Part shown: positions 2,364-61,619 of the stretch, in pieces | Layout of the letters: the number at the start of each line of letters is the position of its first letter | Numbering within the stretch: the first letter of the stretch is position 1 | Source: Sebaldella termitidis ATCC 33386 | GTDB taxonomy: Bacteria; Fusobacteriota; Fusobacteriia; Fusobacteriales; Leptotrichiaceae | DNA length: 64,000 nucleotides | Assembly (NCBI RefSeq): GCF_000024405.1 | Contig: NC_013517.1 | Location: forward strand, 1,922,001 to 1,986,000 | Reading direction: 5' to 3' | Notes under the pieces: model-generated | The model's input: the letters and a program-made list of their open reading frames with translations, nothing else | What the model was told of the DNA's origin: nothing | Database searches by the model: none | Made by a program: the position numbers and the translations under genes

Positions 2364-3214
2364 TGGAAATATTAGGACAAATCTTGATGTTGGCCCCTCC
2401 GATATTAATAACAGCAGTAGGAGCATGTTTTACGGAAATAACAGGAGTAACGAACCTTGGTTTAGAGGGAATGATGTTATGCGGAGCATTTGCAGGAGCG
2501 ACAGTATCATATTATACAGGTAATCCTTATATGGGATTAATAGCAGGAGTACTGGCAGGGGGAATAATATCTCTGGTCCATGCGTTTATAAGTATAAACT
2601 TACGAGGAAACCAGATAGTAAGCGGAGTTGCGATAAACCTTCTTGCGGTGGCACTGACCTCCTATCTGATAAAGGTATTGTTTAAGGTAGCGGGTTCGAC
2701 ACCTGCAGCACCGAGACAGGCAAGTCTGATGTTTGTACTGATACTGATATACGGTTTGGCAATAATATCGAATTATATAATGTACGGAACGGTATTGGGA
2801 CTGAGAATGAGAGCAGTGGGAGAGCATCCGCTGGCAGCAGATACAGTGGGAATAAATGTATATTTGATAAGATATATAGGAGTAGTAATGTCAGGACTGT
2901 ATGCAGGACTGGGAGGAGCATATATGACGACGGTAATGCTGCCTTCATTCAGCAATAACATGTCGGCGGGAAGAGGATTTATGGCGATGGCAGCGATGAT
3001 ATTCGGAAAGTGGAAGCCTTGGGGAGCAATGCTTGCGAGTTTCTTATTTGCCTTTGGAAGTGTGCTGGAGGTCCAGTTAAAGATACATTATCCGAACTTT
3101 CCGCAGCAGTTTTTGGCGATGATACCATATGTACTGACACTGCTGGCCTTGGTAGGCTTTGTAGGGAAGGCAAAGGCACCGGCTTCTTCGGGACAGCCTT
3201 ATGAAAAACAATAA
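2360..3214 (+). CDS. Nucleoside ABC importer permease 2 (NupQ/YufQ-like)
   Basis: A 284-residue membrane protein with about eight hydrophobic segments. The region FTEITGVTNLGLEGMM is a paralogue of the GLFNIGAQGQM region of the preceding permease, as expected for the second half of a BmpA/NupOPQ-type channel. The start ATG overlaps the stop of permease 1 (ATGA), with AGGAGG at 2345-2350. The gene ends 38 bases before the pyrimidine nucleoside phosphorylase, which supports nucleosides as cargo. Confidence 0.93.
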   Translation: MMEILGQILMLAPPILITAVGACFTEITGVTNLGLEGMMLCGAFAGATVSYYTGNPYMGLIAGVLAGGIISLVHAFISINLRGNQIVSGVAINLLAVALTSYLIKVLFKVAGSTPAAPRQASLMFVLILIYGLAIISNYIMYGTVLGLRMRAVGEHPLAADTVGINVYLIRYIGVVMSGLYAGLGGAYMTTVMLPSFSNNMSAGRGFMAMAAMIFGKWKPWGAMLASFLFAFGSVLEVQLKIHYPNFPQQFLAMIPYVLTLLALVGFVGKAKAPASSGQPYEKQ

Positions 3215-3252
3215 CTTGAGATAAAAAAAATTTTATGAAAGAGGTGATATTT

Positions 3253-4560
3253 TTGAGAGCTGTAGACATTATAGAGAAGAAAAGAGACAAAAAAGAAATT
3301 ACAAATGAAGAGATTAGTTTTCTGTTATCCAATTATCTGAAAGAGGAAATACCTGATTATCAGATGGCGGCATTTTTAATGGCAGTATATTTTAATGGTA
3401 TGACTGATGCGGAACTTTTGGAATTTACAAAAGAGATGAGAGATTCAGGAGATGTAATTGATTTTGAAGGTTTGAAGAGATTTCATGTGGATAAACACAG
3501 TACAGGCGGTGTAGGAGATAAGGTAACTATTGCACTTGAGCCGATAATGTCAGCACTGGGAATGGGAAGTACAAAGCTTTCGGGAAAAGGTCTCGGACAT
3601 ACCGGAGGAACTATTGATAAATTTGAAGCTATAAAAGGCTTTAAATTCTCAAATACCAAAGAAGAAGTAATAGAAATAGCCAATAAAACCGGGATAGGAC
3701 TTATGGGCTACAGCGATAAAATAGTACCTCTTGATAAAAAATTATATTCATTAAGAGATGTTACGGCTACAGTAGCAAGTATCCCACTTATAGCAAGCAG
3801 TATAATGAGTAAAAAGCTGGCAATTCATTCTGATGCAATTATTCTGGATGTAAAAACGGGTAACGGTGCTTTCATGAAAACACTTCCCGATGCCAGAGAG
3901 CTTGCTGAAACAATGCTGAAAATAGGAAAAGGATTTGACAGAAAAATTGTAGCTGTAATAAGCAATATGGATCAGCCTTTAGGATGTGCCGTAGGAAATG
4001 CAAATGAAGTAATAGAGGCAATTGAAACACTGAAAGGAAACGGTCCGGAAGATTTTACCGATTTGGTTTATAATATAGCTGCACTTGCATTAAAACTGAA
4101 AGGTGATGTTAATACACTTGAAGAAGGAATAGCAAAGGTAAAAGAGGTAGTGGACAACAGAAGCGCCCTTGAAAAATTTGCACTGTTTATTAAGGAAAGC
4201 GGCGGAGATCCGGAAATAGTAAATGACTATTCACTGCTGCCTGAATATGCGGGAACTCTTGAGGTAAAATCAGAAGAGGAGGGTTATGTCAGTCAGATTT
4301 TAGCAGAAGAAGTAGGAAAAGCAGCAATGATAATAGGTGCAGGGAGAGCAACAAAGGAAGATGAGATAGATCACAGTGTCGGTGTGCTTGTACTGAAAAA
4401 GGTAGGAGATTTTGTTAAAAAGGGCGACGTTATAGCTAAAATTTGTTATAATGAGAGTAAGGATGTGGAAAAATCGGCAAAAATGATTTTGGGTGCTTAT
4501 AAATTCAGCAAAGAGAAGGTAGAAAAACCAAAAATTATTTTTGAGATTTTGGAAGCATAA
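3253..4560 (+). CDS. deoA: Pyrimidine-nucleoside (thymidine) phosphorylase
   Basis: A 435-residue member of nucleoside phosphorylase family II, cleaving thymidine/uridine with phosphate to the base and (deoxy)ribose-1-phosphate. The phosphate/substrate loop KHSTGGVGDK is at residues 81-90, followed by SGKGLGHTGGTIDK and KTGNGAFM. An in-frame ATG exists at 3235, but GAGGTG at 3241-3246 would then be inside the gene. With TTG 3253 the protein begins (M)RAVDIIEKKRDK, the usual family N-terminus. It may be the broad PyNP (pdp) rather than strict DeoA; sequence alone does not separate them. Lies in the salvage operon between the importer and deoC. Confidence 0.95.
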   Translation: MRAVDIIEKKRDKKEITNEEISFLLSNYLKEEIPDYQMAAFLMAVYFNGMTDAELLEFTKEMRDSGDVIDFEGLKRFHVDKHSTGGVGDKVTIALEPIMSALGMGSTKLSGKGLGHTGGTIDKFEAIKGFKFSNTKEEVIEIANKTGIGLMGYSDKIVPLDKKLYSLRDVTATVASIPLIASSIMSKKLAIHSDAIILDVKTGNGAFMKTLPDARELAETMLKIGKGFDRKIVAVISNMDQPLGCAVGNANEVIEAIETLKGNGPEDFTDLVYNIAALALKLKGDVNTLEEGIAKVKEVVDNRSALEKFALFIKESGGDPEIVNDYSLLPEYAGTLEVKSEEEGYVSQILAEEVGKAAMIIGAGRATKEDEIDHSVGVLVLKKVGDFVKKGDVIAKICYNESKDVEKSAKMILGAYKFSKEKVEKPKIIFEILEA

Positions 4561-4653
4561 TAAATATAAATTTTATGTTTTTCTGACATAAGAAATCAGG
4601 ATTATGCATCCTGCAAAAAATGTATGAAACCAAAAATATTTTAGGAGGAAAAA

Positions 4654-5319
4654 ATGAAAATAAATGAGTATATTGACCATACTTTACTAAAAGCAACAGC
4701 CACTAAGGCTGAAATTAAAGTGATCTGTGATGAGGCGAAAAAATATAATTTTTATGCTGTATGTGTGAATGGTTCTTATGTGCCTTACGTAAAAGAGGAG
4801 CTTAAGGATTCAGGAGTAAATATAGCAGCAGTTATAGGCTTTCCGTTAGGGGCAATGTCTACTAAGGCAAAGGTCTTCGAAGCGGAACAGGCTGTAAGAG
4901 ACGGTGCTACTGAAATAGATATGGTTATTCAGATAGGAAAGCTGATAGACGGTGACTATGAATATGTGGAAAATGATATAAGAGAAATAAAAAAAGCTAT
5001 CGGAGACAATGTTTTAAAGGTAATAATAGAAACTTGCTACCTTACTGACGAGCAAAAGAAGAAAGCATGCGAGCTTGCACTAAATGCAAAGGCTGATTAT
5101 GTAAAGACTTCTACTGGTTTTGGAACAGGCGGAGCAACTTTTGACGATGTTAAGCTGATGAAAGATGTAGTGAAAGATAACGCAAAGGTAAAAGCCAGCG
5201 GAGGAGTAAAGGATTATGAAACTGCTGAAAAATACGTAGAACTTGGTGCTTCAAGACTTGGGACAAGCTCAGGTGTAAAAATAATCGAAGGTGAAAAAGC
5301 AGGAGAAAATGATTATTAA
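4654..5319 (+). CDS. deoC: Deoxyribose-phosphate aldolase
   Basis: A 221-residue class I aldolase that splits 2-deoxyribose-5-phosphate into glyceraldehyde-3-phosphate and acetaldehyde. The opening YIDHTLLKA, the block EIDMVIQIGKL and the Schiff-base lysine in VKTSTGFGTGGAT (K151) are all present, and length is normal for the short bacterial form. AGGAGG precedes the ATG. It follows deoA by 93 bases; a short hairpin (around 4570-4590) lies in that gap but has no T-run, so read-through is likely. Confidence 0.96.
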   Translation: MKINEYIDHTLLKATATKAEIKVICDEAKKYNFYAVCVNGSYVPYVKEELKDSGVNIAAVIGFPLGAMSTKAKVFEAEQAVRDGATEIDMVIQIGKLIDGDYEYVENDIREIKKAIGDNVLKVIIETCYLTDEQKKKACELALNAKADYVKTSTGFGTGGATFDDVKLMKDVVKDNAKVKASGGVKDYETAEKYVELGASRLGTSSGVKIIEGEKAGENDY

Positions 5320-5422
5320 TCTTTTGGCATTCTATAGGAAATCAGAATAAAAACAGTAATTTTACAATATACCTGAATTTTATACAGACGTAACATACAT
5401 CAGTAAGTAAGGAGGTAAAAAA

Positions 5423-6601
5423 ATGAGCAAAATAAACAGAGTAACACTAATAGTACTGGACAGTGTGGGAGCAGGAGAGCTGCCTGATGCGAAGGATTTC
5501 GGAGATGAGGGGTCTAATACACTCGGGAATCTTTCAAAGGCAACAGGAGGGCTTAATCTTCCAAATATGCAGAAAATAGGATTGGGAAATATTACTGATA
5601 TAACCGGGGTAGCTCCGAATAATAATCCGGACGGAGCCTATGGAAAAGCAAAAGAGGTTTCTATAGGAAAAGATACTACTACAGGACACTGGGAAATGTC
5701 AGGAGTAATTCTGGAAAGACCATTTCCTAATTATATGAAAGGTTTTTCCGAGGAAGTAATAAAAGAGTTTTCAGAAAAGACAGGAAGAGGAGTACTTTGG
5801 AACAAAGCTGCTTCTGGAACTGTAGTAATAGAAGACTGCGGTGAGGAACAGATGAAAACCGGAAAGTGGATTGTTTATTCATCGGCAGATCCTGTTTTTC
5901 AGATAGCTGCAAATGAAGAAATAATACCTTTGGAGGAATTATACAAGGCCTGTGAAATTGCACTGGAAATCTGTAATGCAAAATCACCGGTTTCAAGAGT
6001 AATAGCAAGACCGTTTGTAGGGAAGAAAAAAGGTGAATTCAAAAGAACATCGAACAGACATGATTTCTCTATACAGCCGCCGGGGGTAACAGTACTGGAT
6101 AAATTAAGCGAAGCCGGCAAGGATGTAATAGGAATAGGAAAGATCTACGATATTTTTGCAGGAAGAGGAATTACTGATACAAGAAAAACAAATAAAGACG
6201 ATCTTGACGGAATAAAGAAAACAATAGAAGCACTGAAGGAAGATACTAACGGGCTTATATTTACGAATCTTGTAGATTTCGATATGCTTTACGGACACAG
6301 AAGAGATACCGAAGGGTACAAAAATGCCCTTGAGCTGTTTGATAAATGGCTGCCGGAAATAGAAAAAAATCTTCGTGATGATGAAATACTTATAATAACA
6401 GCTGATCACGGAAATGATCCTACATACAAGGGAACGGATCATACAAGAGAGTATATACCGGTATTGGTTTACGGGAAACATGTAAAAAAAGGTGCAGATA
6501 TAGGAACAAGAGAAAGCTTTACAGATATAGCCTCTACAATAGAAGAGCTTTTACTTGGCAATAAGACAGAAGGAAGCTTTGCTGATATTATTTTAGACTA
6601 A
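5423..6601 (+). CDS. deoB: Phosphopentomutase
   Basis: A 392-residue alkaline-phosphatase-superfamily enzyme that moves phosphate from C1 to C5 of ribose or deoxyribose, linking the nucleoside phosphorylases to DeoC and pentose metabolism. Metal and phosphoryl motifs are visible: LDSVGAGELPDA at the N-terminus, GKDTTTGHWEM, NRHDFS, and TADHGNDPTYKGTDHTREY near the C-terminus. Full length. AAGGAGG lies 7 bases before the ATG. The 103-base gap upstream shows no terminator. Confidence 0.96.
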   Translation: MSKINRVTLIVLDSVGAGELPDAKDFGDEGSNTLGNLSKATGGLNLPNMQKIGLGNITDITGVAPNNNPDGAYGKAKEVSIGKDTTTGHWEMSGVILERPFPNYMKGFSEEVIKEFSEKTGRGVLWNKAASGTVVIEDCGEEQMKTGKWIVYSSADPVFQIAANEEIIPLEELYKACEIALEICNAKSPVSRVIARPFVGKKKGEFKRTSNRHDFSIQPPGVTVLDKLSEAGKDVIGIGKIYDIFAGRGITDTRKTNKDDLDGIKKTIEALKEDTNGLIFTNLVDFDMLYGHRRDTEGYKNALELFDKWLPEIEKNLRDDEILIITADHGNDPTYKGTDHTREYIPVLVYGKHVKKGADIGTRESFTDIASTIEELLLGNKTEGSFADIILD

Positions 6602-6634
6602 TATAATATTTAATATAGGAAACGGAGTGGTTAG

Positions 6635-8284
6635 ATGAAAAGAATGATGATTTTTTTATCGATGTTGTTATCGGTAGTTTTATTGGGAAAAGAGGTAAAT
6701 ATTACCATACTTGGTACATCAGATGTACACGGAAGAATGGTGCCGTGGAATTATTCCACAGACAAGGCAGATTTTTCGGGATCGTACAGTCAGATTTCCG
6801 AAGTAATAAAAGATTACAGACAAAATAATAAAAATGTTATTGTAGTGGATATAGGGGATATAATTCAGGATAATTATATAGAAAAATTTATTAATGAACC
6901 TCAGCATCCGGCAATGACAGCACTAAACGAAATGAAATATGATATAATCATACCGGGAAATCATGAGTTTAACTTTGGCATGGATGCTTTGAACAAAGTA
7001 TTCAAACAATTTGACGGAAAAGTTTTGTCAGCTAATATTTATTATAAAACCGGAGAAAGATATCTTGAACCAAGCACGATAATGACAGTAGACGGAATCA
7101 AAGTAGGTTTAATAGGTGCAACCACTCCTTTAGTAGAACAGTTTGAGGAAGAATCAGGAAATGTTAAGGATATGAGATTTGCAATGCCTGCAGATGAAAT
7201 AAGAAAAGAAGTTCAGAATCTGAAAAAGCAGGGTGCAGATGTAATAGTACTTCTGGCTCATATGGGACTTCCAAATGAAAATAATATACCGGGAACAGGT
7301 GTAGTGGATATAGCAAACGAAGTTTCGGGAATTGATGTAATTATAGCAGGGCATGAGCATAAAAATGTAAGTAAGCAGGTAGTAAACGGAACAATAATAA
7401 CTGAGCCTTACAGATACGGAGCTGCGATTTCTGTAGTTGACCTGAAATTTAACGTAGATGCCAAGGGAAAGAAAACACTTATAAACAAAGATGCAAAAAC
7501 TATAAGTGTAAACAGTGAAAAATCAGATAAAAAAGTGGAAGAGATATATGCTCCATATAGTGAAATATTAATAAAAGATGCAAATGTAAAAGTAGGAGAA
7601 ACTGCAAATGATATGGTACCTCAGGTACTGGTGAAAGGAATACCTTCTATTTATATGAAAGATTCGGGATTATCAACATTATTTGGTGATGTGCAGATTT
7701 ATTACAGTAAGGCTGATGTAGTGTCATTCCTTGTGGATAATAAAAAAGCAGTGCTTAATAAAGGAGATATCAAAAAGAAAGATATAGCCAATAATTATCA
7801 GTATACTTCAGGGGAAACTACAGTGTACGAGCTTACGGGAAAAGATCTGAAAGATTATATGGAATGGTCGGCTGCATACTTTGATACTGTAAAGCCCGGT
7901 GATACCGAATACAGATATGATCCTGTAAGAGGAGCTTCAAAGTATATGACTTATGATATGTTCGGCGGAGTAAAGTATAAAATAGACTTGAGAGAAGCTC
8001 CGGGGAACAGAATAAAGGATCTGAGACTGGCAAAGGGAAATAAGAAGGTAACAGATGATATGAAAATCAAAGTAGGATTAAATGCTTACAGATATGAAAT
8101 GCTGGTAGCCAAAGGAGGACCGCTTGAAGGAAGAAGAGTGGATCCTGTCTGGGATTCTAAAACTGCATTTGGTGAAGAAGAAGGAACTATTAGAAATATG
8201 ACTATCAGATATATCAGAGATGCGAAAAAAGGAAAAATAGACGGTAAAGCACATGGTTACTGGGAAGTAATAGGAATAGAATAA
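6635..8284 (+). CDS. Exported 5'-nucleotidase / 2',3'-cyclic-nucleotide phosphodiesterase
   Basis: 549 residues with an N-terminal signal peptide (about 1-19). The calcineurin-like phosphoesterase domain shows [31 protein letters not shown] and AGHEHKN, in that order, followed by a 5'-nucleotidase C-terminal substrate domain. Family members (UshA, CpdB, YfkN) hydrolyse extracellular nucleotides to nucleosides and phosphate in the periplasm or at the surface. Its position inside the nucleoside uptake operon gives it a clear job: making transportable nucleosides from nucleotides. No LPXTG anchor is visible, so it is probably soluble. CpdB versus UshA specificity is not decided. Confidence 0.9.
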
Positions 8285-8307
8285 ACATAGAAAAACAGGA
8301 GGAAAAA

Positions 8308-9006
8308 ATGAGTGTACATATAGCAGCTAAAAAAGGAGAAATAGCAGAAACAGTACTGCTTCCGGGAGATCCGTTGAGAGCAAAGTATATAGCAGAAAAA
8401 TATCTGGAAAATCCTGTGCAGTATAATAATGTAAGAGGAATGATGGGATTTACTGGAACATATAAAGGAAAAAAAGTATCTGTTCAGGGAACAGGTATGG
8501 GGATACCTTCTATCTCAATTTATGCTACTGAACTGATCACAGAATACGGATGTAAAAATCTGATAAGAATAGGAAGTGCAGGCTCATACCAAAAAGATGT
8601 AAAAATAAGAGATATAGTAGTAGCAATGGCTACCTCTACTGACTCTAACATAAATAACCTCAGATTTCCGGGAGCTAATTTCGCACCGACTGCAAGTTAC
8701 GAGCTTTTTGCAAAGGCTACAGCAGCTGCAAAAGAAAAGGGAATAGAATTCAAGGCAGGAAACGTAATGTCAAGCGATACTTTCTACGGTGATGATAAAG
8801 AAGCATGGAAACACTGGGCAGATTTTGGGATCCTGTGTGTGGAAATGGAAGCAGCAGGTCTTTATACACTTGGAGCCAAATATAATGTAAATACACTGGC
8901 TATTCTGACTATCAGTGATTCACTGGTTACAGGAGAAGCTACTACATCGGAAGAAAGAGAAAAAACATTTAATGACATGATAGAGATGGCTTTGGGTACT
9001 CTTTAA
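8308..9006 (+). CDS. deoD: Purine-nucleoside phosphorylase, DeoD type
   Basis: 232 residues of the hexameric low-specificity PNP family, converting purine (deoxy)nucleosides and phosphate to base plus (deoxy)ribose-1-phosphate. Family blocks visible: [40 protein letters not shown] and the catalytic-loop region [10 protein letters not shown]. Full length. It starts 23 bases after the nucleotidase gene with AGGAGG in the gap, and supplies substrate to DeoB. Confidence 0.96.
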
Positions 9007-42507: not shown

Positions 42508-45500
42508 ATGAAAAAATTTAAGAAAAATAAACTTTTGATCGCTTTTATGGCAGTAATAATAGCAAATTCAGCTTATGCAGAAAAATCAGATGAAAATGAA
42601 CTTATAATTCTGGGAAATTATTTTAAAAACCATAATAATCCGAAAAAGCAAAATGCAGGAGGAGGAATTACAGTTCCGACGGATCCGGATAATAATATAC
42701 CGGATAATGACGACCCAGAGGAACCAGATAATCCTGTTGATCCCGATGAACATATAATTCCGGTAGATCCTGTTAAATTAGTAGTGGTAAAGGAGAATGA
42801 CAAGGAAAGTGCCTGGAAATTACAATACGGAAATAATTTGTCTTACAATGTTTCGGGGGATATATCATCTGTTAACACAACAGCCTTATGGATGACAGAT
42901 CGAAATACTGTAGTTACAAATAATAATACTTTGGAATCTGATTACTCCACAACAAATGAAAATAATAATCAATATACAGTACATGTAGAAAATAATGCTT
43001 CTTTTATAAATAACGGAATAATAAACGGGAACAATGTAATAGGAGTATATCTGGAAAATGCAGATTCTTTTGAAAATAGTACAGGTGCAAGTATTAATAA
43101 TACAGGCAGCTATGGAGTAAGAGCATTTAACACAAAAGAAATAAAAAATAACGGATTGATACAAAATACGGGTGATTACGGTCTATATGCTTCAGATGTT
43201 TCGTATATAGAGAATAAGGAAAACGGGATAATAGCCAATATCGGAAACTATGGTGTATTTTTAAAGGGACAGGACAGTATTTTTATAAATAATGGAACAA
43301 TAGCTAATAGTGGAAAGTATGGTTTACATATAGTAGATGGTTCCGCAATTAATTACGGGATCATAGAGAATAATAGTTCTTGGGGAATAAAATCTGATGA
43401 AAATGCTACAGCAGAAAATTACGGGATAATCAGAAACGGCAGTTCTGCCGGTATGGGTGCAATAAACGGCGGTACGGTAATAAACCATAGTGATGGAGTG
43501 ATAAGCAATCTTGGCGAAAACGGAATGTATGCAACTTCTAATTCCAAAGCGATAAATTACGGTATAATTGAAAATCTCAAGTCAGTGGGAATGATAATAA
43601 GCGGAGAAAATGCTTTAGGAATAAATAACGGAGAAATAAGATCAAATGGTGTTTACGGGATGCAGGGAGATTACTCGGGAGAAATAATAAATAACGGGAA
43701 AATAATAAATAACGGGAATTTTGGAATGCTGATTTTCGACGACGGAACACGGGCAATAAATAATAATGTCATAGAAAATAAAGGAAATAATGGTATGGGC
43801 ATGATGGAAGGCAGCGGATATATAGAAAACAACGGAACGATACAAAATACTGGGGATAATGGAATTTCTGTGAATGGAAGCGGTTATGCAAAAAATAACG
43901 GAACAATAAAAAACTTAGGGGATTATGCTACGTCTGTTACTAGTACTGGAATAATAGAAAATAACGGAATAATAGAGCTGACAGGAGATAACAAAACAGG
44001 GATGACGACAACCGGAGGCGGTATTTCTATAAATAACGGAACAATAAAAATGAATGGACAAAATACTGTAGGAATATATGCTTCAAACGGGACTGTAATA
44101 AATCAGGGAAATATAATAATAAATGGTTCAGGACACGGGATAGCGGCATATAATAACAGTCATGTTATTTTGGGAGAAGGGAGTACAATAACAATAAACT
44201 CTTCGTCACAGACATATAACGGAACAGAAACAGGAGGAGACGGGACTTATGTTTATGTGGATGGAACTTCTGATATAAATAACAAGGGTGTGATAACTTC
44301 CGACTCAAGAATAACAGTGGATGGAAACGGAAAATTTGTAGTAAATTCAACTGCCGGAGGATTAAGGACAAAAAAGCTGATTTTGAATAATAATTTATAT
44401 ATGGGCTCTGAAGCAGTTATGAATTCATCAGAGGATAAATATGTTCTTAAAAATATAGATGCTGATGAGATAACAGGAAACGGAAGAATTTTATCAGATT
44501 CAATATTTTTTGAGACAGAGACAGAAAAGAAAAATGACGGCTATCAGGTAGTAATGAAAAGAATAAAATTTAACAATCCGATAAAAAGTACATTAGGAGA
44601 AGTTCTTGAAAATAATTATTCAGGTTCTGAAAATGATGCTCAAAAGAATAAAATTTATAATTCCCTGAAAGCAATAACAGACAGTCAGAAATTGCTGACT
44701 GCCGAAGATGAAATGACAGGAAGTTCAGCAGTAAATAATCAGACGTATCAGTTATTCACTCAGGACAGACTAATATCACAGGGGATAGATCAGCTTATGA
44801 GCAGAAGGACCGAAAGTGTAGATAATGGAATATATGCTAATTTTCTTTATAATCAGACAAAGGCAGATACAAAAAACGGATTTGAAGGATATAACGGAAA
44901 ATCAACTGGAATTATACTGGGCGGAATGAAAAAAATTACTGAAAATACTGCTGTAGGAGGATTTTTAGGTTACCTTAATACAGATATAAACTATAAGGAT
45001 TCATCAAATACCCAAAAATTAGAAACATGGTCATTGACAGGAGCTTTAAATACAGAGCTTACAGATAAAATTCTATGGAGAAACAGAGTTAACTATAACT
45101 TTGGATCTAATGATTCGGAAAGAAGAATAACTTTTGATAATTCAAACAGAGAAGTTAACAGTTCATTTGATTCATGGTCTGCAGGAGGAGTATCAGAGCT
45201 GGAGTATACGCAGAAAATAAATGATATTATATCATTTAGACCGTCTGCAGGAGTAAGGCTGGATTATCTGAAAGAAAGCGGATATACTGAAAATGGAGCA
45301 GACGGGCTGAATCTAGAAGTAGATTCCAATGATGCTTTCTCAGGGAAGATTGGCGCAGGAGTAAAAGTTGATATTAATGCTTATAAAGGACAGAATTCCG
45401 CACTTAAGCTTACGCCGAACATGAATTATGCATATGAGCTCGGGAATCCTTATGACAAAAGAGCTGTAAAGTTATCAGCTTTTGAAGGAAAAATGGATAT

Positions 45501-45654
45501 TAATGAAAGAGATACAGGAAAAAATTCTTTGAATCTTGGTCTTGACCTGGAGTATAATTATAAGAATAAATTTTCAGTTTATGCGGGTTATAATGCCGGT
45601 GTACTGTCAGATAAAGATTCTGCCTTTACAGCAGGATTTAAATATCAGTTTTAA
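42508..45654 (+). CDS. Type Va autotransporter (classical) with beta-helix passenger
   Basis: 1048 residues. Signal peptide (about 1-24, ending AYA), then a Pro/Asp/Asn-rich linker (about 50-90) with DPEEPDNP-type repeats. The passenger (about 100-640) is built of imperfect repeats with the core N-N-G-x-I-x-N-x-G-x-x-G, a right-handed beta-helix pattern. The C-terminal 270 residues form the autotransporter barrel, starting near NGIYANFLYNQTKAD and ending in the terminal phenylalanine of FKYQF. It is exported by its own barrel (with BAM help) and most likely acts as an adhesin; no protease triad is visible. Strong promoter upstream, terminator downstream, monocistronic. Confidence 0.93.
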   Translation: MKKFKKNKLLIAFMAVIIANSAYAEKSDENELIILGNYFKNHNNPKKQNAGGGITVPTDPDNNIPDNDDPEEPDNPVDPDEHIIPVDPVKLVVVKENDKESAWKLQYGNNLSYNVSGDISSVNTTALWMTDRNTVVTNNNTLESDYSTTNENNNQYTVHVENNASFINNGIINGNNVIGVYLENADSFENSTGASINNTGSYGVRAFNTKEIKNNGLIQNTGDYGLYASDVSYIENKENGIIANIGNYGVFLKGQDSIFINNGTIANSGKYGLHIVDGSAINYGIIENNSSWGIKSDENATAENYGIIRNGSSAGMGAINGGTVINHSDGVISNLGENGMYATSNSKAINYGIIENLKSVGMIISGENALGINNGEIRSNGVYGMQGDYSGEIINNGKIINNGNFGMLIFDDGTRAINNNVIENKGNNGMGMMEGSGYIENNGTIQNTGDNGISVNGSGYAKNNGTIKNLGDYATSVTSTGIIENNGIIELTGDNKTGMTTTGGGISINNGTIKMNGQNTVGIYASNGTVINQGNIIINGSGHGIAAYNNSHVILGEGSTITINSSSQTYNGTETGGDGTYVYVDGTSDINNKGVITSDSRITVDGNGKFVVNSTAGGLRTKKLILNNNLYMGSEAVMNSSEDKYVLKNIDADEITGNGRILSDSIFFETETEKKNDGYQVVMKRIKFNNPIKSTLGEVLENNYSGSENDAQKNKIYNSLKAITDSQKLLTAEDEMTGSSAVNNQTYQLFTQDRLISQGIDQLMSRRTESVDNGIYANFLYNQTKADTKNGFEGYNGKSTGIILGGMKKITENTAVGGFLGYLNTDINYKDSSNTQKLETWSLTGALNTELTDKILWRNRVNYNFGSNDSERRITFDNSNREVNSSFDSWSAGGVSELEYTQKINDIISFRPSAGVRLDYLKESGYTENGADGLNLEVDSNDAFSGKIGAGVKVDINAYKGQNSALKLTPNMNYAYELGNPYDKRAVKLSAFEGKMDINERDTGKNSLNLGLDLEYNYKNKFSVYAGYNAGVLSDKDSAFTAGFKYQF

Positions 45655-54107: not shown

Positions 54108-54123
54108 TAATAAGCGCTTATTA
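54108..54123. promoter_or_regulatory. cre-like / LacI-type palindrome before mtlA
   Basis: Perfect 16-bp palindrome TAATAAGCGCTTATTA, core AAGCGCTT as in CcpA (cre) and other LacI-family operators, 24 bases before the mtlA start. It suggests catabolite or sugar-dependent repression of the operon. Confidence 0.65.
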
Positions 54124-54147: not shown

Positions 54148-55551
54148 ATGGATGTTAGTCAGACAAAAAACTGGCAAATCAAGATTCAAAAGTTTGGCGG
54201 TTTTTTAAGCTCAATGGTTATGCCTAATATTGGAGCTTTTATAGCATGGGGAATTATTACTGCATTATTTATCCCTACTGGATGGATTCCTAATGAATTT
54301 TTAAATAGATTGGTTGGTCCGACACTGACATATTTACTGCCGATTTTGATTGGGTATACTGGAGGATACAATATACACGGAAAAAGAGGTGGAGTTGCCG
54401 GAGCCATAGCAACAATGGGGGTTGTTATAGGTGCTGATGTAACTATGTTAATCGGTGGTATGATTATGGGACCGCTGGCCGGATGGATAATTAAAAAAGC
54501 GGATAAATGGCTTGAGGGAAAATGTAAGCCGGGATTTGAAATGCTGATTGATAATTTCTCTTTGGGGATTATCGGTGGAATCTTGATGATACTGGGGCTT
54601 TGGGCTATTGAACCTGTATTTAATGTAATTCTTACTTCGCTGTCTCTTGGGGTAAACTGGGTACTGGCCAGGGGACTTATCCCGCTGGCAAGTATTTTCG
54701 TGGCTCCGGCTCAGGTATTATTCTTAAATAATGCGATTAATCATGGCATTATGGCTCCGCTGGGTGTACAGCAAGTGGCTGAATACGGAAAGTCGATACT
54801 TTTCCTTGTAGAAGGAAACAGCGGACCGCTGGTAGGTGTAATGCTGGCATATTGTATTTTCGGAAAAGGAATAGCTAAAAAAACTGCACCTGCTGCCAGT
54901 GTAATAGTCATGTTTGGAGGAATAGCAGAAGTTTATTTTCCGTATGTTCTGATGAAGCCGATTTTGGTACTGGCTCCTATTTTCGGAAGTATGACATCAT
55001 TATTTATTTTCCAGACATTTGGAGGAGGGACTGTGGCAGTTCCGTCACCGGGAAGTATTTTCGCCTTTTTGATGATGACTCCGAAAGGATCATTTATAGT
55101 AAATATTGCGGGATATTTTGGTGGCTTGCTGGTTTCATTCTTAATAGCAGGATTTTTACTAAAAATTGATAAATCCGAGCCGGATGATGAGGTTCTTGCC
55201 GAAGAAACAACAGCAGCGGATTTAAGTGTTAACAATACTCTAAATGAAATGGGAGATATTACATCAAATACTGTCAAAAGAATTTTGGTAGCATGTGATG
55301 CAGGTATGGGTTCCAGTGCTATGGGAGCTTCTCTTTTGAAATCAAAAATAAAAAAAGCAATGCTTGATATATCAGTGACAAATGCTTCGCTGAATAATAT
55401 TCCTGATGATGTTGATCTCATTATTACTCATAAAGACTTGCTGGAGAGAGCAAAATCAATAGTGAAAAATCCTAATACACAGTTTATAGGTATCAGTAAT
55501 TTTCTTGAAGCAAAAGAATACGATAAAATAATTGAAACTTTGAAAAAGTAA
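54148..55551 (+). CDS. mtlA: PTS mannitol-type transporter, EIICB
   Basis: 467 residues. IIC membrane domain (about 10-340) with MVMPNIGAFIAWGIITALFIPTGW (read in part) and FLNNAINHGI; IIB domain with phosphocysteine C383 in ACDAGMGSS. No IIA domain; that is encoded by mtlF. The substrate-site motif that reads GGIHEIYF in E. coli MtlA is GGIAEVYF here (Ala260), so the hexitol may not be mannitol. SD AGGAGG. First gene of the operon. Confidence 0.92.
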   Translation: MDVSQTKNWQIKIQKFGGFLSSMVMPNIGAFIAWGIITALFIPTGWIPNEFLNRLVGPTLTYLLPILIGYTGGYNIHGKRGGVAGAIATMGVVIGADVTMLIGGMIMGPLAGWIIKKADKWLEGKCKPGFEMLIDNFSLGIIGGILMILGLWAIEPVFNVILTSLSLGVNWVLARGLIPLASIFVAPAQVLFLNNAINHGIMAPLGVQQVAEYGKSILFLVEGNSGPLVGVMLAYCIFGKGIAKKTAPAASVIVMFGGIAEVYFPYVLMKPILVLAPIFGSMTSLFIFQTFGGGTVAVPSPGSIFAFLMMTPKGSFIVNIAGYFGGLLVSFLIAGFLLKIDKSEPDDEVLAEETTAADLSVNNTLNEMGDITSNTVKRILVACDAGMGSSAMGASLLKSKIKKAMLDISVTNASLNNIPDDVDLIITHKDLLERAKSIVKNPNTQFIGISNFLEAKEYDKIIETLKK

Positions 55552-55582
55552 AATGATATTTTTAATATAGTAGGTGAGTGAA

Positions 55583-57640
55583 ATGATAATATCTTCCAGA
55601 ACTAAAACCATAATTGAATTTTTAATAAGTGCAGAAGATTATCTTACAATAAAGGATATAGCCGGCAGGCTTAATTTGGCCGAGAGAACGGTATATCGGG
55701 AAATGGATAACGTTAATGATACATTGGGTCATTACAGTCTTTTTGTGGAAAGTATAAAAAGCAAAGGAGTCCGTCTGTATGGTTCTGCGGAAGATATTGA
55801 TCATTTAAAAAAATCACTGAATGATAACAAGGCTGTTTATGATTATAATTTTCAGGAAAGAATTGAAACAATACTGTTTTATCTGCTTCATGAAAAAGAC
55901 TTTATAAAAACGAGACTCTTATCTATAAAATTGCAGGTATCAATGCAGACTATAAGAAATGATCTGCAGCATATTGAAAATACCATTAAGATACATGATC
56001 TGAAACTGGAAAAGAAAAAAGGACTCGGTATTTTGATCAGTGGGAATACAATTTCCAGAAATCATCTGCTTGTAAATCTTTTGATGAGAAATATTGATAT
56101 AGATGTATTTTTAAAATGGATAAAGAACTTTAATGAAAATAACAGTTTATTCATAAAGTTTTTGATTGAATTTGGCTATGAGAATATCATAAAGAAATCT
56201 TATACAGTAGTAAATAATCTTATAAACGAAAAAAATATCCAGCTTACTGATGTAGAGTTTCAGGAACTTATTTTTCTTCTGACAATGTTTATTAACAATC
56301 GTGATAATTATATTTTAGAGCCTTTAAATTTTGAAGAAACATTTTATAATAAAAATTTGACTGAAAAAATAAAGGTATATATTGAAAATATCTTTAATAT
56401 TAATCTTACCGGAGATGATATAAAGTATTTGAAATGGATTGTCAATTTGATTTCAAATCATAATATAAAAAGTATAATTGTCGATAAAAACGAACTCAGT
56501 ATGGCTAAAAAAATTAATAATTTTATAGAATTGGTAGAAGCCTCGCTAAAAGTAAATTTACGTAACGACAGCACTTTGGCGGAAGGGCTGGTCGGTCACA
56601 TTGACAGGGCATTGATAAGAATAAGAAGCGGGATTTCCGTATCAAATCCGATAAACAGTGAAATAAAAAACAGATACGAAGAACTCTACAGAGTAATTCG
56701 CCAAAGTATTGACGAAGTTTTTCAGGATGACTTATTTCCAGAAGATGAAATCGGATATCTGGTTCTTTATTTTGTTGTGTCGCTGGACAAGATGGCTGTT
56801 AAATCAATAAAGGTACTAGTAGTCTGTTCCAGCGGAATGGGGTCTTCAAAAATGCTTTCAAGCAGACTGGAGCGGGAAATCCCCGAAATAACTGTAAGGA
56901 AAATAATAGCTTTAATAAGTCTGCCGAAAGAAAATTTGAATGAATACGATATAGTAATTTCTACAATACCGCTGGATCTTCAGACAGTTCCTCATATGAT
57001 GGTTTCCCCTCTCTTAAATAAGGAAGAAATTAATAGATTAAAACACAGAATAATTACTCTGGAAGAAAAGAAATATCAGCTGACTGATAAAATAAAAATA
57101 ATCAAGGCAGAAGAAAGAGATATCGTAGACGAGATTAAAAAAATCAGACTTTTCAGCCATTGGGCACTGGAATTAATCAATGGATTTAAAGTGGAATATA
57201 TAGAAGGGAAAGACAGGAACACGGATATTTTAGAAATAATAGACAAAGATCTGTTCAATGATAAAATTATCCCTGAGAACGCTGTTTATGAACATATCAA
57301 GAATAATGAAAAAATCTCTTATTTTCAAATTCCGAATACAAAAATAGATTATCTTGACTGCAGCCTGGAGAAAATTAAACAGCCGGTATTCAGAGTATAC
57401 CATTTGGATTTCGAGGGTATCTTCAATTTTAATAATAAAGAATTATCAGATATAGAAGCCTTTGTTATTATGATATATCCGAAAAACCATAATAAATTAC
57501 TGCTGAATCTGCTGAGCTTTATTACTATGTCAATAATAGAAAATAACGATACAATAAGAAATTTTGAAAATGGAAACGAAAATAAAATAAAAGGTCTTTT
57601 AAATGAAAAAATAAAACTATTTTTAAAAGATCATTTTTAG
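55583..57640 (+). CDS. mtlR: PRD-containing transcriptional activator MtlR
   Basis: About 685 residues of the BglG/MtlR type (residue numbers from GTG 55574). Two N-terminal HTH modules (LTIKDIAGRLNLAERTVYREM; VSMQTIRNDL), two PRDs, EIIB-like domain with C418 in VVCSSGMGSS, a coiled helix, and a C-terminal EIIA-like domain. PRD2 keeps H342 (GHIDRA) but has Y399 where a histidine is usual (LVLYF), and the EIIA-like site reads IPN588 instead of IPH. Expected to activate the operon when unphosphorylated by the PTS. ATG 55583 is preferred over GTG 55574, which overlaps the SD. Confidence 0.88.
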   Translation: MIISSRTKTIIEFLISAEDYLTIKDIAGRLNLAERTVYREMDNVNDTLGHYSLFVESIKSKGVRLYGSAEDIDHLKKSLNDNKAVYDYNFQERIETILFYLLHEKDFIKTRLLSIKLQVSMQTIRNDLQHIENTIKIHDLKLEKKKGLGILISGNTISRNHLLVNLLMRNIDIDVFLKWIKNFNENNSLFIKFLIEFGYENIIKKSYTVVNNLINEKNIQLTDVEFQELIFLLTMFINNRDNYILEPLNFEETFYNKNLTEKIKVYIENIFNINLTGDDIKYLKWIVNLISNHNIKSIIVDKNELSMAKKINNFIELVEASLKVNLRNDSTLAEGLVGHIDRALIRIRSGISVSNPINSEIKNRYEELYRVIRQSIDEVFQDDLFPEDEIGYLVLYFVVSLDKMAVKSIKVLVVCSSGMGSSKMLSSRLEREIPEITVRKIIALISLPKENLNEYDIVISTIPLDLQTVPHMMVSPLLNKEEINRLKHRIITLEEKKYQLTDKIKIIKAEERDIVDEIKKIRLFSHWALELINGFKVEYIEGKDRNTDILEIIDKDLFNDKIIPENAVYEHIKNNEKISYFQIPNTKIDYLDCSLEKIKQPVFRVYHLDFEGIFNFNNKELSDIEAFVIMIYPKNHNKLLLNLLSFITMSIIENNDTIRNFENGNENKIKGLLNEKIKLFLKDHF

Positions 57641-57655
57641 AAAGGAGTATTACCT

Positions 57656-58093
57656 GTGAAAAAAATTTTCAGTGAAGACAATATTATCCTTAACCAGTCA
57701 TTTAAAGATAAATATGAAGCAATAACCTATGCCGGGGAAATTTTGGTAAAGAACGGATATACGACACCTGAGTACATTGAATCTATGTTAGAAAGAGAAA
57801 AAGTAGCTTCGGTATATATAGGAAATAATGTAGCGATTCCGCATGGTGTCAGCGGTTCTGAAAAAAATATCCTGAAATCAGGCATTTCTTTTGTTCAGGT
57901 TCCCGACGGAGTTCCTTTTGATAATGGCGAAATTGCTTATCTGATTATCGGAATAGCCGGTAAAGGTGATGAACACATGGGGTATCTTGAACAGATTGCT
58001 TTTGTCTGTTCGGAAGAGGAAAATATAATAAAATTAAAAAATTCTGTTAATAAGGAAGAAATATTAAAAATATTTGAGGAGGTAAGCATATGA
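57656..58093 (+). CDS. mtlF: PTS mannitol-type EIIA component
   Basis: 145 residues, single EIIA-2 domain. Phosphohistidine H63 in VAIPHGVSG; DGVPFDNGEIAYLIIGIAGKGDEHMGYL is the family's second block. It passes phosphate from HPr to the IIB cysteine of MtlA. GTG start with AAAGGAG 8 bases upstream. Its stop overlaps the mtlD start (ATGA). Confidence 0.94.
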   Translation: MKKIFSEDNIILNQSFKDKYEAITYAGEILVKNGYTTPEYIESMLEREKVASVYIGNNVAIPHGVSGSEKNILKSGISFVQVPDGVPFDNGEIAYLIIGIAGKGDEHMGYLEQIAFVCSEEENIIKLKNSVNKEEILKIFEEVSI

Positions 58094-59220
58094 TGCAGGC
58101 AGTACATTTTGGAGCCGGAAATATAGGAAAAGGCTTTATTGGGGATCTTTTACATGATTCCGGATTTTACATAACATTTGTGGAAGTTAATGATGCTGTT
58201 GTGCAGAGTATTAACAGAACTAACAGTTATGATATATATGTTATAGATAAAAATTATGAAAAAAGAACAATTAATAATGTAAGTGCACTATCATCAGGGG
58301 AAGAAGAAATAACTGAGGCGATTTTGGACGCTGATATGGTAACGACGTCTGTATGGGCGGATAATCTTGCCAAAGTAGCACCTGTAATAGCAAAAGGTCT
58401 GCAGAAACGTATAGATAATAAAAAAGAAAAATTAAATATTTTAGCTTGTGAAAATGCTCTTTATGCAACAGATATTCTGAAAAAAGAAATATTGAAAAAT
58501 TTGAAGGCAGATGAAAGCGAATTAAATAATTATGCCTGTTTTCCAAATGTTTCGGTAGACAGACTGGCACTTAACATTATAAAAGACGGGGAACCGGCGG
58601 TAGAAATCGACAGCAGCTTCGAGCTGGTTATTGAAAAAAATAAACTTGTAAATCCTGACACAGAGCCAATAAAAGGAGCTATTTATGCAGAAAATCTAAC
58701 TATGTATCTGGAACGGAAATTATATATTGTAAACTGCGGGCATGCAGCAGCAGCATATCTTGGTTTTCTAAAAGGTTATAAAATTGTTCAGGATGCACTA
58801 AAAGATAAAGAAATACTGGAAGAGGTTCTGGGGGCTATGAATGAATCAGCTGCTGTTCTTCAGAAAAAATTTGGTTTTTCGCATGAGGATCTGCAGAAAT
58901 TTATTCAGAAAAATATAAAGCGTTTTACATCAGAAGCCGTGAAAGATGATATTCTCAGAGTGGGACGTTCACCAATAAGAAAATTAGATCCTACAGACCG
59001 TCTTGTGGCTCCTGCATTAGGATGTATCGAATATAATTATGAGACTAAATATTTATCAAAGATAATAGCTGCAGTTTTCCACTATGAAAATCCAAATGAC
59101 GAGCAGGCTGTCATACTGAAAAAATATTTGGATGAAAACGGCATTGAAAAATCAATTACAAATTTTACTAAAATTCAAAAAGGGACAAAATTATTTGATG
59201 AAATATCAGAAAAATTTTAG
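58090..59220 (+). CDS. mtlD: Mannitol-1-phosphate 5-dehydrogenase
   Basis: 376 residues, long-chain polyol dehydrogenase. Nucleotide-binding start VHFGAGNIGKGFIGDLL, middle LNILACENAL, catalytic region ERKLYIVNCGHAAAAYLG and VGRSPIRKLDPTDRLVAPALG. It oxidises mannitol-1-P to fructose-6-P with NAD+. The segment around residue 150 (CFPNVSVDRLAL) is divergent from enterobacterial MtlD, so a different hexitol phosphate is possible. Tight coupling with mtlF (ATGA overlap). Confidence 0.92.
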   Translation: MMQAVHFGAGNIGKGFIGDLLHDSGFYITFVEVNDAVVQSINRTNSYDIYVIDKNYEKRTINNVSALSSGEEEITEAILDADMVTTSVWADNLAKVAPVIAKGLQKRIDNKKEKLNILACENALYATDILKKEILKNLKADESELNNYACFPNVSVDRLALNIIKDGEPAVEIDSSFELVIEKNKLVNPDTEPIKGAIYAENLTMYLERKLYIVNCGHAAAAYLGFLKGYKIVQDALKDKEILEEVLGAMNESAAVLQKKFGFSHEDLQKFIQKNIKRFTSEAVKDDILRVGRSPIRKLDPTDRLVAPALGCIEYNYETKYLSKIIAAVFHYENPNDEQAVILKKYLDENGIEKSITNFTKIQKGTKLFDEISEKF

Positions 59221-59242
59221 TCATCAGAAAACGGAGGGAAAA

Positions 59243-59881
59243 ATGAAATTACAGTTAGCTTTAGATGATATGCCGCTTCAGGAAGCGATATCATTCACAA
59301 AAAAAGTAGAGAAATATATTGATGTTATAGAGATAGGGACTCCTTTTATAATAGATGAGGGTGTTAATGCAGTAAGAGAATTCAAAAAAGAATTTCCTGC
59401 GAAAGAAATTCTGGCAGATTTAAAAATTATGGATGCAGGGGCTTATGAAGCAGAGCTGGCACTTAAAGCCGGGGCTGATTATGTAACTGTTTTGGGTGTT
59501 ACTGATGTTTTGACAGTAAAAGGCTGTGTAGAGATGGCGGATAAATATAATAAGGAAATCGTGGTAGATATGATTTGTGTTTCTGATTTACCTGCGAAAA
59601 TCAAAGAGATGGAAGATGTTAAGGCACATTTTGTTTCTGTACATACGGGTGCTGATCAGCAGGCAGCTGGAAGAGAACCGATTGAAGATCTGAAAATAAT
59701 GACTGCACATACTAAAAAGGCAAAAATTTCTGTAGCGGGAGGAATCAGCAGCAGAACAGCACAGATGTATGTGGATCTGAATCCGGATATTTTAATTGTC
59801 GGAAGTGCAATAACACATGCAGATGATCCTGCAGCTGAGGCTAAAGCTATCAGAGATATCATGGACGGAGGTAAAAAATAA
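59243..59881 (+). CDS. hxlA: 3-Hexulose-6-phosphate synthase
   Basis: 212 residues of the orotidine-phosphate-decarboxylase superfamily. KLQLALDDMPLQEA, EIGTPFII, metal/acid site LADLKIMDAGAYEA, and VHTGADQQAAGREPIEDL are typical of HPS. It interconverts ribulose-5-P plus formaldehyde and arabino-3-hexulose-6-P. The QQAAGR block favours HPS over the related 3-keto-gulonate-6-P decarboxylase UlaD. The frame runs upstream into mtlD, but GGAGGG marks ATG 59243. Stop overlaps the hxlB start (TAATG). Confidence 0.93.
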   Translation: MKLQLALDDMPLQEAISFTKKVEKYIDVIEIGTPFIIDEGVNAVREFKKEFPAKEILADLKIMDAGAYEAELALKAGADYVTVLGVTDVLTVKGCVEMADKYNKEIVVDMICVSDLPAKIKEMEDVKAHFVSVHTGADQQAAGREPIEDLKIMTAHTKKAKISVAGGISSRTAQMYVDLNPDILIVGSAITHADDPAAEAKAIRDIMDGGKK

Positions 59882-60441
59882 TGAAAAAAGCAGAAGAATT
59901 ACTGGCAATATGCAGAGAACTCTCGGAAGATGCAGAATTTGTCTCAGGTGAAGACATAGAAAAACTGGCGGAATTAATAATAAAATCAAATCGGATTTTT
60001 ATAGCAGGGGCCGGAAGATCAGGATTTGCAGCAAGAGCATTTGCCAACAGATTAATGCACCTGGGACTGACTGTTTTTTTTGTCGGTGAGACAACAACAC
60101 CTTCAATACAGGCAAATGATCTTTTGATAATAGGATCAGGATCAGGTGAGACAGGAAGTCTTGTTACAATGGCAAATAAAGCTTCCGGGCAAAATGCTTC
60201 AGTAGCAACAATAACTATTTATCCGCAGGCTACAATAGGGGCTCTTTCAAAAGTTACTGTAAAGCTTCCGGGAAGCACTAATAAAAGTGATATTGACTCG
60301 GGAAAAGTTTCTATACAGCCTATGGGTTCGTCTTTTGAACAGCTGAGCCTGCTTGTTTACGACAGTCTGATTATGATTTTAATGAAAAAATTAAATAAAA
60401 CCGGAGATGAAATGTTCAAAAATCATGCAAATTTAGAATAA
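59881..60441 (+). CDS. hxlB: 6-Phospho-3-hexuloisomerase
   Basis: 186 residues, one SIS domain: GAGRSGFAARAFANRLMHLG, TTPSIQANDLLIIGSGSGETGSL, and QPMGSSFEQLSLLVYDSLI are the family signatures. It interconverts 3-hexulose-6-P and fructose-6-P. Start overlaps hxlA by one base; AGGAGG... of the hxlA end (GACGGAGG) serves as SD. With hxlA it makes the complete fixation/cleavage pair of the ribulose monophosphate pathway. Confidence 0.95.
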   Translation: MKKAEELLAICRELSEDAEFVSGEDIEKLAELIIKSNRIFIAGAGRSGFAARAFANRLMHLGLTVFFVGETTTPSIQANDLLIIGSGSGETGSLVTMANKASGQNASVATITIYPQATIGALSKVTVKLPGSTNKSDIDSGKVSIQPMGSSFEQLSLLVYDSLIMILMKKLNKTGDEMFKNHANLE

Positions 60442-60467
60442 AAACTATATTCAGGAGGAAAAATAAA

Positions 60468-61619
60468 ATGTCAAGCAAGGTTTTTTATGTCCCGGCAGTA
60501 AATCTACTGGGAAAAGGATGTATAAATGAATTAGGCGGTTATATTCAGCAGTTTGGTTATAAAAAAGGGCTGATTATAACGGATAAATTCTTAAGCTCAA
60601 GTAAAATAATAGAAAAAGTAAAAGCAATTTTGGATAAATCAGGAATAGAGTATGTCATTTTTGATGATGTAAAGCCGAATCCCACATGTGAAAATGTAAA
60701 TAACGGACTGGAAATGCTAAAAAAAGAAAAGTGCGACTGCATTATTTCTGTCGGAGGAGGATCACCTCAGGATACTGCCAGTGGAATAAGTATTTTGGCT
60801 GCAAACGGCGGAGAAATGAAAGATTATGAAGGTGTAAATAAATCAGAAAAAACAGGATTTCCTGTTATTGCTGTTAATACCACAGCAGGAACTTCAGCAG
60901 AGCTGACAATAAATTATGTAATTACAGATGAAGAAAGACATGTCAAGATGATTTGCATTGATAAAAACAGTCTTGCAAAAATGTCAGTAAATGATCCTGA
61001 ATTAATGCTTGATAAACCTGCATCACTGACAGCAGCTACAGGAATGGATGCACTAACTCATGCAATAGAAGCGCTGGTAACCCCGGGAGCTTATCCTGTA
61101 ACTGATGCTATGGCATTATCAGCTGTAAAAATTATTTTTGAGTATCTTCCAAGAGCTGTAAAAAACGGAAATGATATCGAGGCGAGAGAGCAAATGGTTT
61201 ATGCTATTTTCCTCACAGGGATGGCTTTCAGTAATGCTGGTCTTGGTTTTGTACATGCTATGGCACATCAGCTCGGCGGTCTGTATGATCTTCCGCATGG
61301 TGTATGTAATGCCATGCTGCTGCCGACAGTAGAAGAAGCTAATGCTAAATATGTTCCTGAAAAATTCAGACCGATTGCGGAATATATAGGACTGGACACA
61401 AAGAATAAAAGTGATGATGAATGTGCAGAATTTGTAATTTCTTCAATCAGAGAGCTTTCAAAAACAGTGGAAATACCTGAAACTCTCACAGAATTAGGGG
61501 TAACTGATCCGGATTTAGATTTGCTGGCAGAAAATTCGTTAAAGGATGCCTGTGCATTTGCGAATCCTTACCTGCCAGATAAAGAGGAAACAATAGAATT
61601 ATTTAAGAAAATATTATAA
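60468..61619 (+). CDS. Iron-containing (group III) alcohol dehydrogenase, methanol-dehydrogenase-like
   Basis: 383 residues. NAD site VGGGSPQDTA (96-104); iron ligands D194, H198 (GMDALTHAIEA), H263 and H277 (HAMAHQLGGLYDLPHG). Overall order and several blocks (NDYxGVN-type KDYEGVN, VNTTAGTSAE, GMAFSNAGLGFVHAMAHQLGG) closely resemble NAD-dependent methanol dehydrogenase of Bacillus methanolicus, but also 1,3-propanediol and lactaldehyde enzymes of the same group. In this operon, formaldehyde/methanol is the natural substrate pair to test. SD AGGAGG. Confidence 0.88.
   Translation: MSSKVFYVPAVNLLGKGCINELGGYIQQFGYKKGLIITDKFLSSSKIIEKVKAILDKSGIEYVIFDDVKPNPTCENVNNGLEMLKKEKCDCIISVGGGSPQDTASGISILAANGGEMKDYEGVNKSEKTGFPVIAVNTTAGTSAELTINYVITDEERHVKMICIDKNSLAKMSVNDPELMLDKPASLTAATGMDALTHAIEALVTPGAYPVTDAMALSAVKIIFEYLPRAVKNGNDIEAREQMVYAIFLTGMAFSNAGLGFVHAMAHQLGGLYDLPHGVCNAMLLPTVEEANAKYVPEKFRPIAEYIGLDTKNKSDDECAEFVISSIRELSKTVEIPETLTELGVTDPDLDLLAENSLKDACAFANPYLPDKEETIELFKKIL

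Follow-up and report, generated by a model that had tools for sequence, protein, structure and literature searches.

A mannitol-type PTS operon of Sebaldella termitidis carrying hxlA, hxlB and an iron-containing alcohol dehydrogenase: a candidate operon for fermentative sugar splitting

The region analyzed was a 64-kb stretch (the window) of the 4,486,650-base genome of the termite-gut bacterium Sebaldella termitidis. Seven genes were located on the + strand at 54148-61619, in the order mtlA-mtlR-mtlF-mtlD-hxlA-hxlB-adh and with the tight spacing reported in the initial annotation. An mtlA-like PTS enzyme IICB of the hexitol/mannitol family (54148..55551) is followed by an mtlR-like PRD transcriptional regulator with HTH, PRD and IIB domain matches (55574..57640), an mtlF-like PTS IIA (57656..58093) and an MtlD-family polyol-phosphate dehydrogenase (58090..59220); the IICB, the IIA and the dehydrogenase were assigned using family models. 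The three remaining genes are hxlA, encoding a 3-hexulose-6-phosphate synthase (HPS; 59243..59881), hxlB, encoding a 6-phospho-3-hexuloisomerase (PHI; 59881..60441), and a gene for a group III iron-containing alcohol dehydrogenase (Fe-ADH; 60468..61619). Successive genes are separated by 22, 15, −4, 22, −1 and 26 bases, and most starts are preceded by a ribosome-binding site. Because the flanking genes at both ends lie on the opposite strand, the unit was regarded as bounded. The likeliest start of hxlA is the ATG at 59243, after CGGAGGGAAAA; the ORF start at 59132 was disfavored. The perfect palindrome AATAAGCGCTTATT (54109..54122), 25 bases 5' of the mtlA start, has a single match within the 64-kb window, with approximately 0.8 near-matches (two or fewer mismatches) expected by chance, and is a putative cre-like or operator-like site. 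The G+C content of the seven genes (0.30-0.39, versus 0.34 for the window) does not show recent transfer. Elsewhere in the window are a nucleoside uptake and degradation cluster (44-9006; ABC transporter, pyrimidine/thymidine phosphorylase, DeoC, DeoB and a DeoD-like protein), which is a further source of pentose phosphate in S. termitidis, and a gene for a large, autotransporter-like protein whose passenger is repetitive and rich in asparagine (42508-45654).

The assignment of HxlA and HxlB as an HPS/PHI pair held up against curated models. HxlA scored 277 bits against TIGR03128 (equivalog cut-off 200) and HxlB 231 bits against TIGR03127 (cut-off 160), and the nearest solved chain to HxlB was YckF. 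The catalytic D/K/D residues are retained in HxlA, which carries D109/A137/A165 where UlaD of the S. termitidis ascorbate operon has E/R/T; positions 112/139/169 of KGPDC (E/R/T) are those which we take to separate ketogulonate-6-P decarboxylase from HPS. That HxlA might prove to be such a decarboxylase had been raised at the outset, and was ruled out by the D/A/A residues together with the model scores. Position 137 is Ala in the window HxlA and in that of a second S. termitidis operon described below (operon 2), and Thr in the HxlAs of enteric PTS operons; it is Tyr in all sampled detoxification-type proteins of Bacillales and Lactobacillales, and Leu in the actinobacterial and alphaproteobacterial ones. 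Since it is Ala rather than Tyr or Leu, the aldehyde that the window HxlA would release is possibly not formaldehyde but a larger one. Two ascorbate (ula) loci (L023 and L024), whose UlaD proteins are near-identical and whose neighbors are identical in part, were observed in opposite orientation with approximately 18 kb between them.

The window MtlA scored 608.8 bits against NF011663 (cut-off 589) and 464.6 against TIGR00851 (cut-off 468.4), and is 53% identical to the MtlA of a separate, canonical mtlR-mtlA-mtlF-mtlD operon in the same genome (L117). The window MtlD fell under all NCBIfam mannitol-1-P dehydrogenase equivalog cut-offs (best 351.6 versus 356), and its paralog from the canonical operon passed (522 versus 368). 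Only five mtlD-family genes were found in S. termitidis. One MtlD clade (support 100/100) comprises the proteins of the window, of operon 2 and of rpe-hxlB-mtlD operons, the last represented by those of Sebaldella and Enterococcus raffinosus; the MtlDs of canonical mannitol operons lie outside. Because mannitol has a canonical operon elsewhere and the window MtlD belongs to this divergent, HxlB-linked clade, the substrate of the window operon may be a polyol other than mannitol. The claim that MtlD makes fructose-6-P from mannitol loses ground through the canonical operon and this clade placement. In a fourth MtlD operon (L116:4853-9889; G000:C1:3593000-3612000), MtlD is accompanied by a DeoC-family aldolase, a zinc-type dehydrogenase and a fructose-type PTS; such a polyol aldolase set is unusual, and a congener (G089) has it too.

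The Fe-ADH keeps the metal ligands Asp194, His198, His263 and His277 and the cofactor region, and fell under all equivalog cut-offs, YiaY/FucO being nearest in NCBIfam. A resemblance to NAD methanol dehydrogenase had been noted for this gene; its best solved match was such an enzyme (8zrl, 412 bits), but ADH2 (3owo, 395 bits) and 1,3-propanediol dehydrogenase (355) followed closely, and its closest Sebaldella paralogs (55-56% identity) were found in rhamnose loci with RhaD, the rhamnulose-1-P aldolase, and other rha genes. There they occupy the position of lactaldehyde reductase and would reduce the aldehyde released by the aldolase. It is from this placement beside an aldolase that the window Fe-ADH is proposed, by analogy, to reduce the aldehyde released by HxlA.

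Close relatives of HxlA were found in two of 98 Fusobacteriia genomes, both of Sebaldella species; two further matches were UlaD-like. A scan of genome contigs with HxlA, which used short patterns and so had limited sensitivity to relatives, gave distant matches, five from the Mycoplasma group at 33-35% and one weak. Both S. termitidis copies of hxlA adjoin an mtlD-family gene, a pairing whose chance occurrence was put by rough estimate at about 5 in 100,000. Operon 2 (L018:4948-12628; G000:C1:3352000-3371999) encodes a SorD-like SDR, a Man-type PTS (IIA-IIB-IIC-IID), an MtlD paralog, DhaL, DhaK, HxlA2 and HxlB2, and is kept in the congener G089; HxlA2 is 63% identical to the window HxlA, and the SDR scored over the cut-off of the sorbitol-6-P dehydrogenase family. 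A second group III Fe-ADH gene was observed 3' of this operon on the opposite strand (L106:10679-11827; L019:14881-16029), at a distance of approximately 12 kb in S. termitidis (G000) and 3 kb in G089. The full seven-gene order was found in S. termitidis and in none of the other species examined. The operon was not found in Sebaldella congeners within the 98 Fusobacteriia genomes, and when plasmids were searched with the MtlDs of the window and of operon 2, the best match was 41%, with no close relative and no sign of the seven-gene operon.

Partial counterparts of the operon were more widespread. Operons of an Rpe-like gene, hxlB, mtlD and a mannitol PTS were found in three Sebaldella genomes and in Enterococcus raffinosus (L098:6388-10643; L128:9286-13607, the E. 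raffinosus locus; L129:2450-6794); in these the carbonyl is perhaps moved to C3, with epimerization following. The L129 operon sits on a wastewater contig filed as Listeria phage. The nearest HxlA outside the genus (57%) belongs to enterobacterial operons of PTS IIBC, a cupin G6P isomerase, hxlB and hxlA, which in E. coli/Salmonella also include an SgrR-like regulator (L035:4148-9637) and lie on the chromosome in 132 of the 5,426 complete E. coli genomes; hxlB has been listed among clade-associated E. coli genes (PMC4819403). Neither operon 2 nor the enteric operons contain an Fe-ADH gene. Among 395 evenly drawn Bacilli genomes there were five HxlA matches, one of them within a PTS operon; a Bacilli cluster (G330) has the order Man-type PTS - ManA-like isomerase - DeoC - hxlA - hxlB. 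One HxlA clade (support 89/98) gathers proteins linked to zwf-gnd-pgi or to formaldehyde dehydrogenases, together with lone HxlAs on Bacilli plasmids. The window, operon-2 and enteric HxlAs fall outside this detoxification clade and the PTS-linked Bacilli protein inside it, from which it follows that linkage to PTS genes either originated repeatedly or has been lost.

From these comparisons we propose, at about an even chance, that the window holds a fermentative polyol PTS operon that would split its sugar through an isomerase acting with a retro-aldolase, followed by an aldehyde reductase. The PTS would import the sugar alcohol as its phosphate, and the MtlD-like enzyme would use NAD to oxidize this phosphate to a 2-keto sugar 6-phosphate, which in the case of mannitol is fructose-6-P. 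HxlB would shift the carbonyl from C2 to C3, and HxlA would split the 3-keto sugar phosphate into ribulose-5-P and a small aldehyde, formaldehyde in the case of a hexose. The aldehyde would be reduced by the Fe-ADH with the NADH made by MtlD (formaldehyde would give methanol), a step that would pull the unfavorable cleavage and balance redox. The equilibrium of HPS/PHI favors synthesis, and NADH-dependent reduction of formaldehyde is strongly downhill, so coupled reduction would be expected to pull HxlA cleavage. In this scheme the direction, the substrate, the aldehyde and the cofactor are predicted, whereas the identities of the genes, their operon arrangement, the HPS-type residues of HxlA and the recurrence are observed. 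Points against the proposal include the lack of an Fe-ADH gene within operon 2 and the enteric operons, and the occurrence of the complete seven-gene order in a single species. Isomerase and retro-aldolase action on a PTS-derived ketose phosphate is the most likely role of HxlAB, since hxlAB recurs where a PTS operon delivers fructose-6-P or a comparable ketose phosphate, away from zwf/gnd and formaldehyde dehydrogenases; no obvious enzyme supplying ribulose-5-P or formaldehyde was seen within the PTS-hxlAB operons compared. The initial suggestion that HxlAB run backwards is favored by this recurrence, while its mannitol-derived fructose-6-P is weakened as substrate. The more specific version, in which a hexitol is split by reverse RuMP to ribulose-5-P and formaldehyde and methanol is the electron sink and a true fermentation product, is put forward only tentatively. 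A wider family of PTS pathways, in which the carbonyl is moved to C3 before cleavage or epimerization, is possible. A continuation through phosphoketolase, which would give a balanced methanol, acetate and lactate fermentation of mannitol, was discarded, as phosphoketolase is absent from the S. termitidis genome.

The initial annotation had viewed the operon as a pentose-making route, and the expected absence of zwf and gnd was verified in the S. termitidis genome. The hexose monophosphate shunt enzymes have been reported missing from this species (PMC3035275), and there is archaeal precedent (PMC9700705) for such a supply, in which HxlAB would here provide ribulose-5-P for nucleotides and the ADH would clear formaldehyde. 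Pentose need is nevertheless not a sufficient reason for the operon, as zwf was found in none of 33 Leptotrichiaceae, of which just one other has a close HxlA, and genes for transketolase and a transaldolase-family protein are present. The genes also lie in a polyol-regulated operon, and E. coli, some strains of which carry the enteric PTS-hxlBA operon, has zwf and gnd. Anabolic supply of this archaeal kind is thus judged very unlikely, and redox disposal or substrate-specific catabolism appears the likelier purpose. A little less improbable is the synthetic direction, in which a pentitol would be converted to ribulose-5-P by the PTS and MtlD, methanol would be oxidized by the Fe-ADH, and HxlA/HxlB would make fructose-6-P. 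It accords with the equilibrium given above, with NAD methanol dehydrogenases as the nearest solved relatives of the Fe-ADH, and with the canonical mannitol operon elsewhere, which leaves a pentitol substrate allowed; methanol is abundant where pectin is degraded. On the other hand, it would load an anaerobic fermenter with additional reducing equivalents, MtlA and MtlD score with mannitol families, and in the remaining hxlAB operons the partners are a hexose or hexitol PTS and a G6P or M6P isomerase, which feed fructose-6-P and not ribulose-5-P.

The residue at position 137 bears on a further alternative, still unlikely but less so than the two preceding, that the operon serves a rare polyol and that HxlA, no longer strict for formaldehyde at its aldehyde site, cleaves another 3-keto sugar phosphate. 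A heptitol-derived heptulose phosphate, for example, would yield glycolaldehyde for reduction by the Fe-ADH. The Ala of the window and operon-2 proteins, the Thr of the enteric ones, the lactaldehyde reductase position of the Fe-ADH relatives and the divergence of the MtlD clade are consistent with such a pathway, but a single small residue is weak evidence when other HPS carry Ile, Leu or Phe there; moreover, HxlA clearly exceeds the TIGR03128 equivalog cut-off and the PTS is of the mannitol family. Least probable of all is that a formaldehyde-detoxification hxlAB-adh unit landed 3' of a mannitol operon with no metabolic connection. Plasmids do carry hxlAB as detoxification units and the window operon is missing from congeners; against this stand the tight gene overlaps, the position of the window HxlA outside the detoxification clade, and the recurrence of hxlAB, both alongside another MtlD and PTS within S. 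termitidis itself and alongside different PTS in further phyla.

HPS and PHI are taken to mark formaldehyde fixation or detoxification. If in PTS operons they form a catabolic aldolase pair, many annotations point the wrong way, including those of the 132 complete E. coli genomes and of Salmonella plasmids; bacteria would have a sugar-splitting route of a new kind, and the methanol of gut systems could derive from sugar alcohols as well as from pectin. The two enzymes are small and soluble, and together with a single dehydrogenase they allow the idea to be tested directly.

The seven-gene set is without precedent among the systems found, as the initial annotation had supposed, but an mtlD-PHI-mannitol PTS combination was already known: in Streptococcus uberis, SUB0285-SUB0289 form an operon of mtlD, a PHI-family gene and a mannitol PTS with rpe and without hxlA (PMC2657157). 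It was the only find in the literature on mannitol-hxlAB operons or methanol from mannitol. Like the window operon, the rpe operons of S. uberis, E. raffinosus and Sebaldella bring together a mannitol-type PTS, MtlD and a PHI-family isomerase; unlike it, they lack an Fe-ADH and encode an Rpe-like epimerase where the window has HxlA, their function being a putative one taken from annotation, and that of E. raffinosus has a DeoR regulator. The S. uberis ribulose-phosphate 3-epimerase is unlikely to be a misnamed HxlA, as its Sebaldella and Enterococcus counterparts encode a real Rpe-family protein. In the enteric operons (L029, L030, L035) a PTS likewise supplies HxlB and HxlA with a ketose phosphate, but the PTS is of the glucose family, MtlD and ADH are lacking, and the hosts have zwf and gnd. 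Bacterial detoxification and methylotrophic RuMP units, with zwf-gnd-pgi or formaldehyde dehydrogenases, use the same two enzyme families in a separate HxlA clade, with other neighbors and in the opposite inferred direction. For archaea, reverse RuMP is an established route (PMC9700705). In Thermococcus kodakarensis, which lacks the oxidative pentose phosphate pathway, HPS/PHI convert fructose-6-P to ribulose-5-P and formaldehyde, as is proposed here. The archaeal route differs in being an anabolic supply with no PTS operon and no coupled reductase, and the non-oxidative pentose phosphate pathway missing from that system is present in S. termitidis. Catabolism of rhamnose and fucose, through an isomerase, a kinase, an aldolase and lactaldehyde reductase, relies on a class II aldolase of another fold and yields lactaldehyde, not formaldehyde, but shares with the proposed route the pairing of an aldolase with an aldehyde-reducing Fe-ADH, the paralogs being 55% identical.
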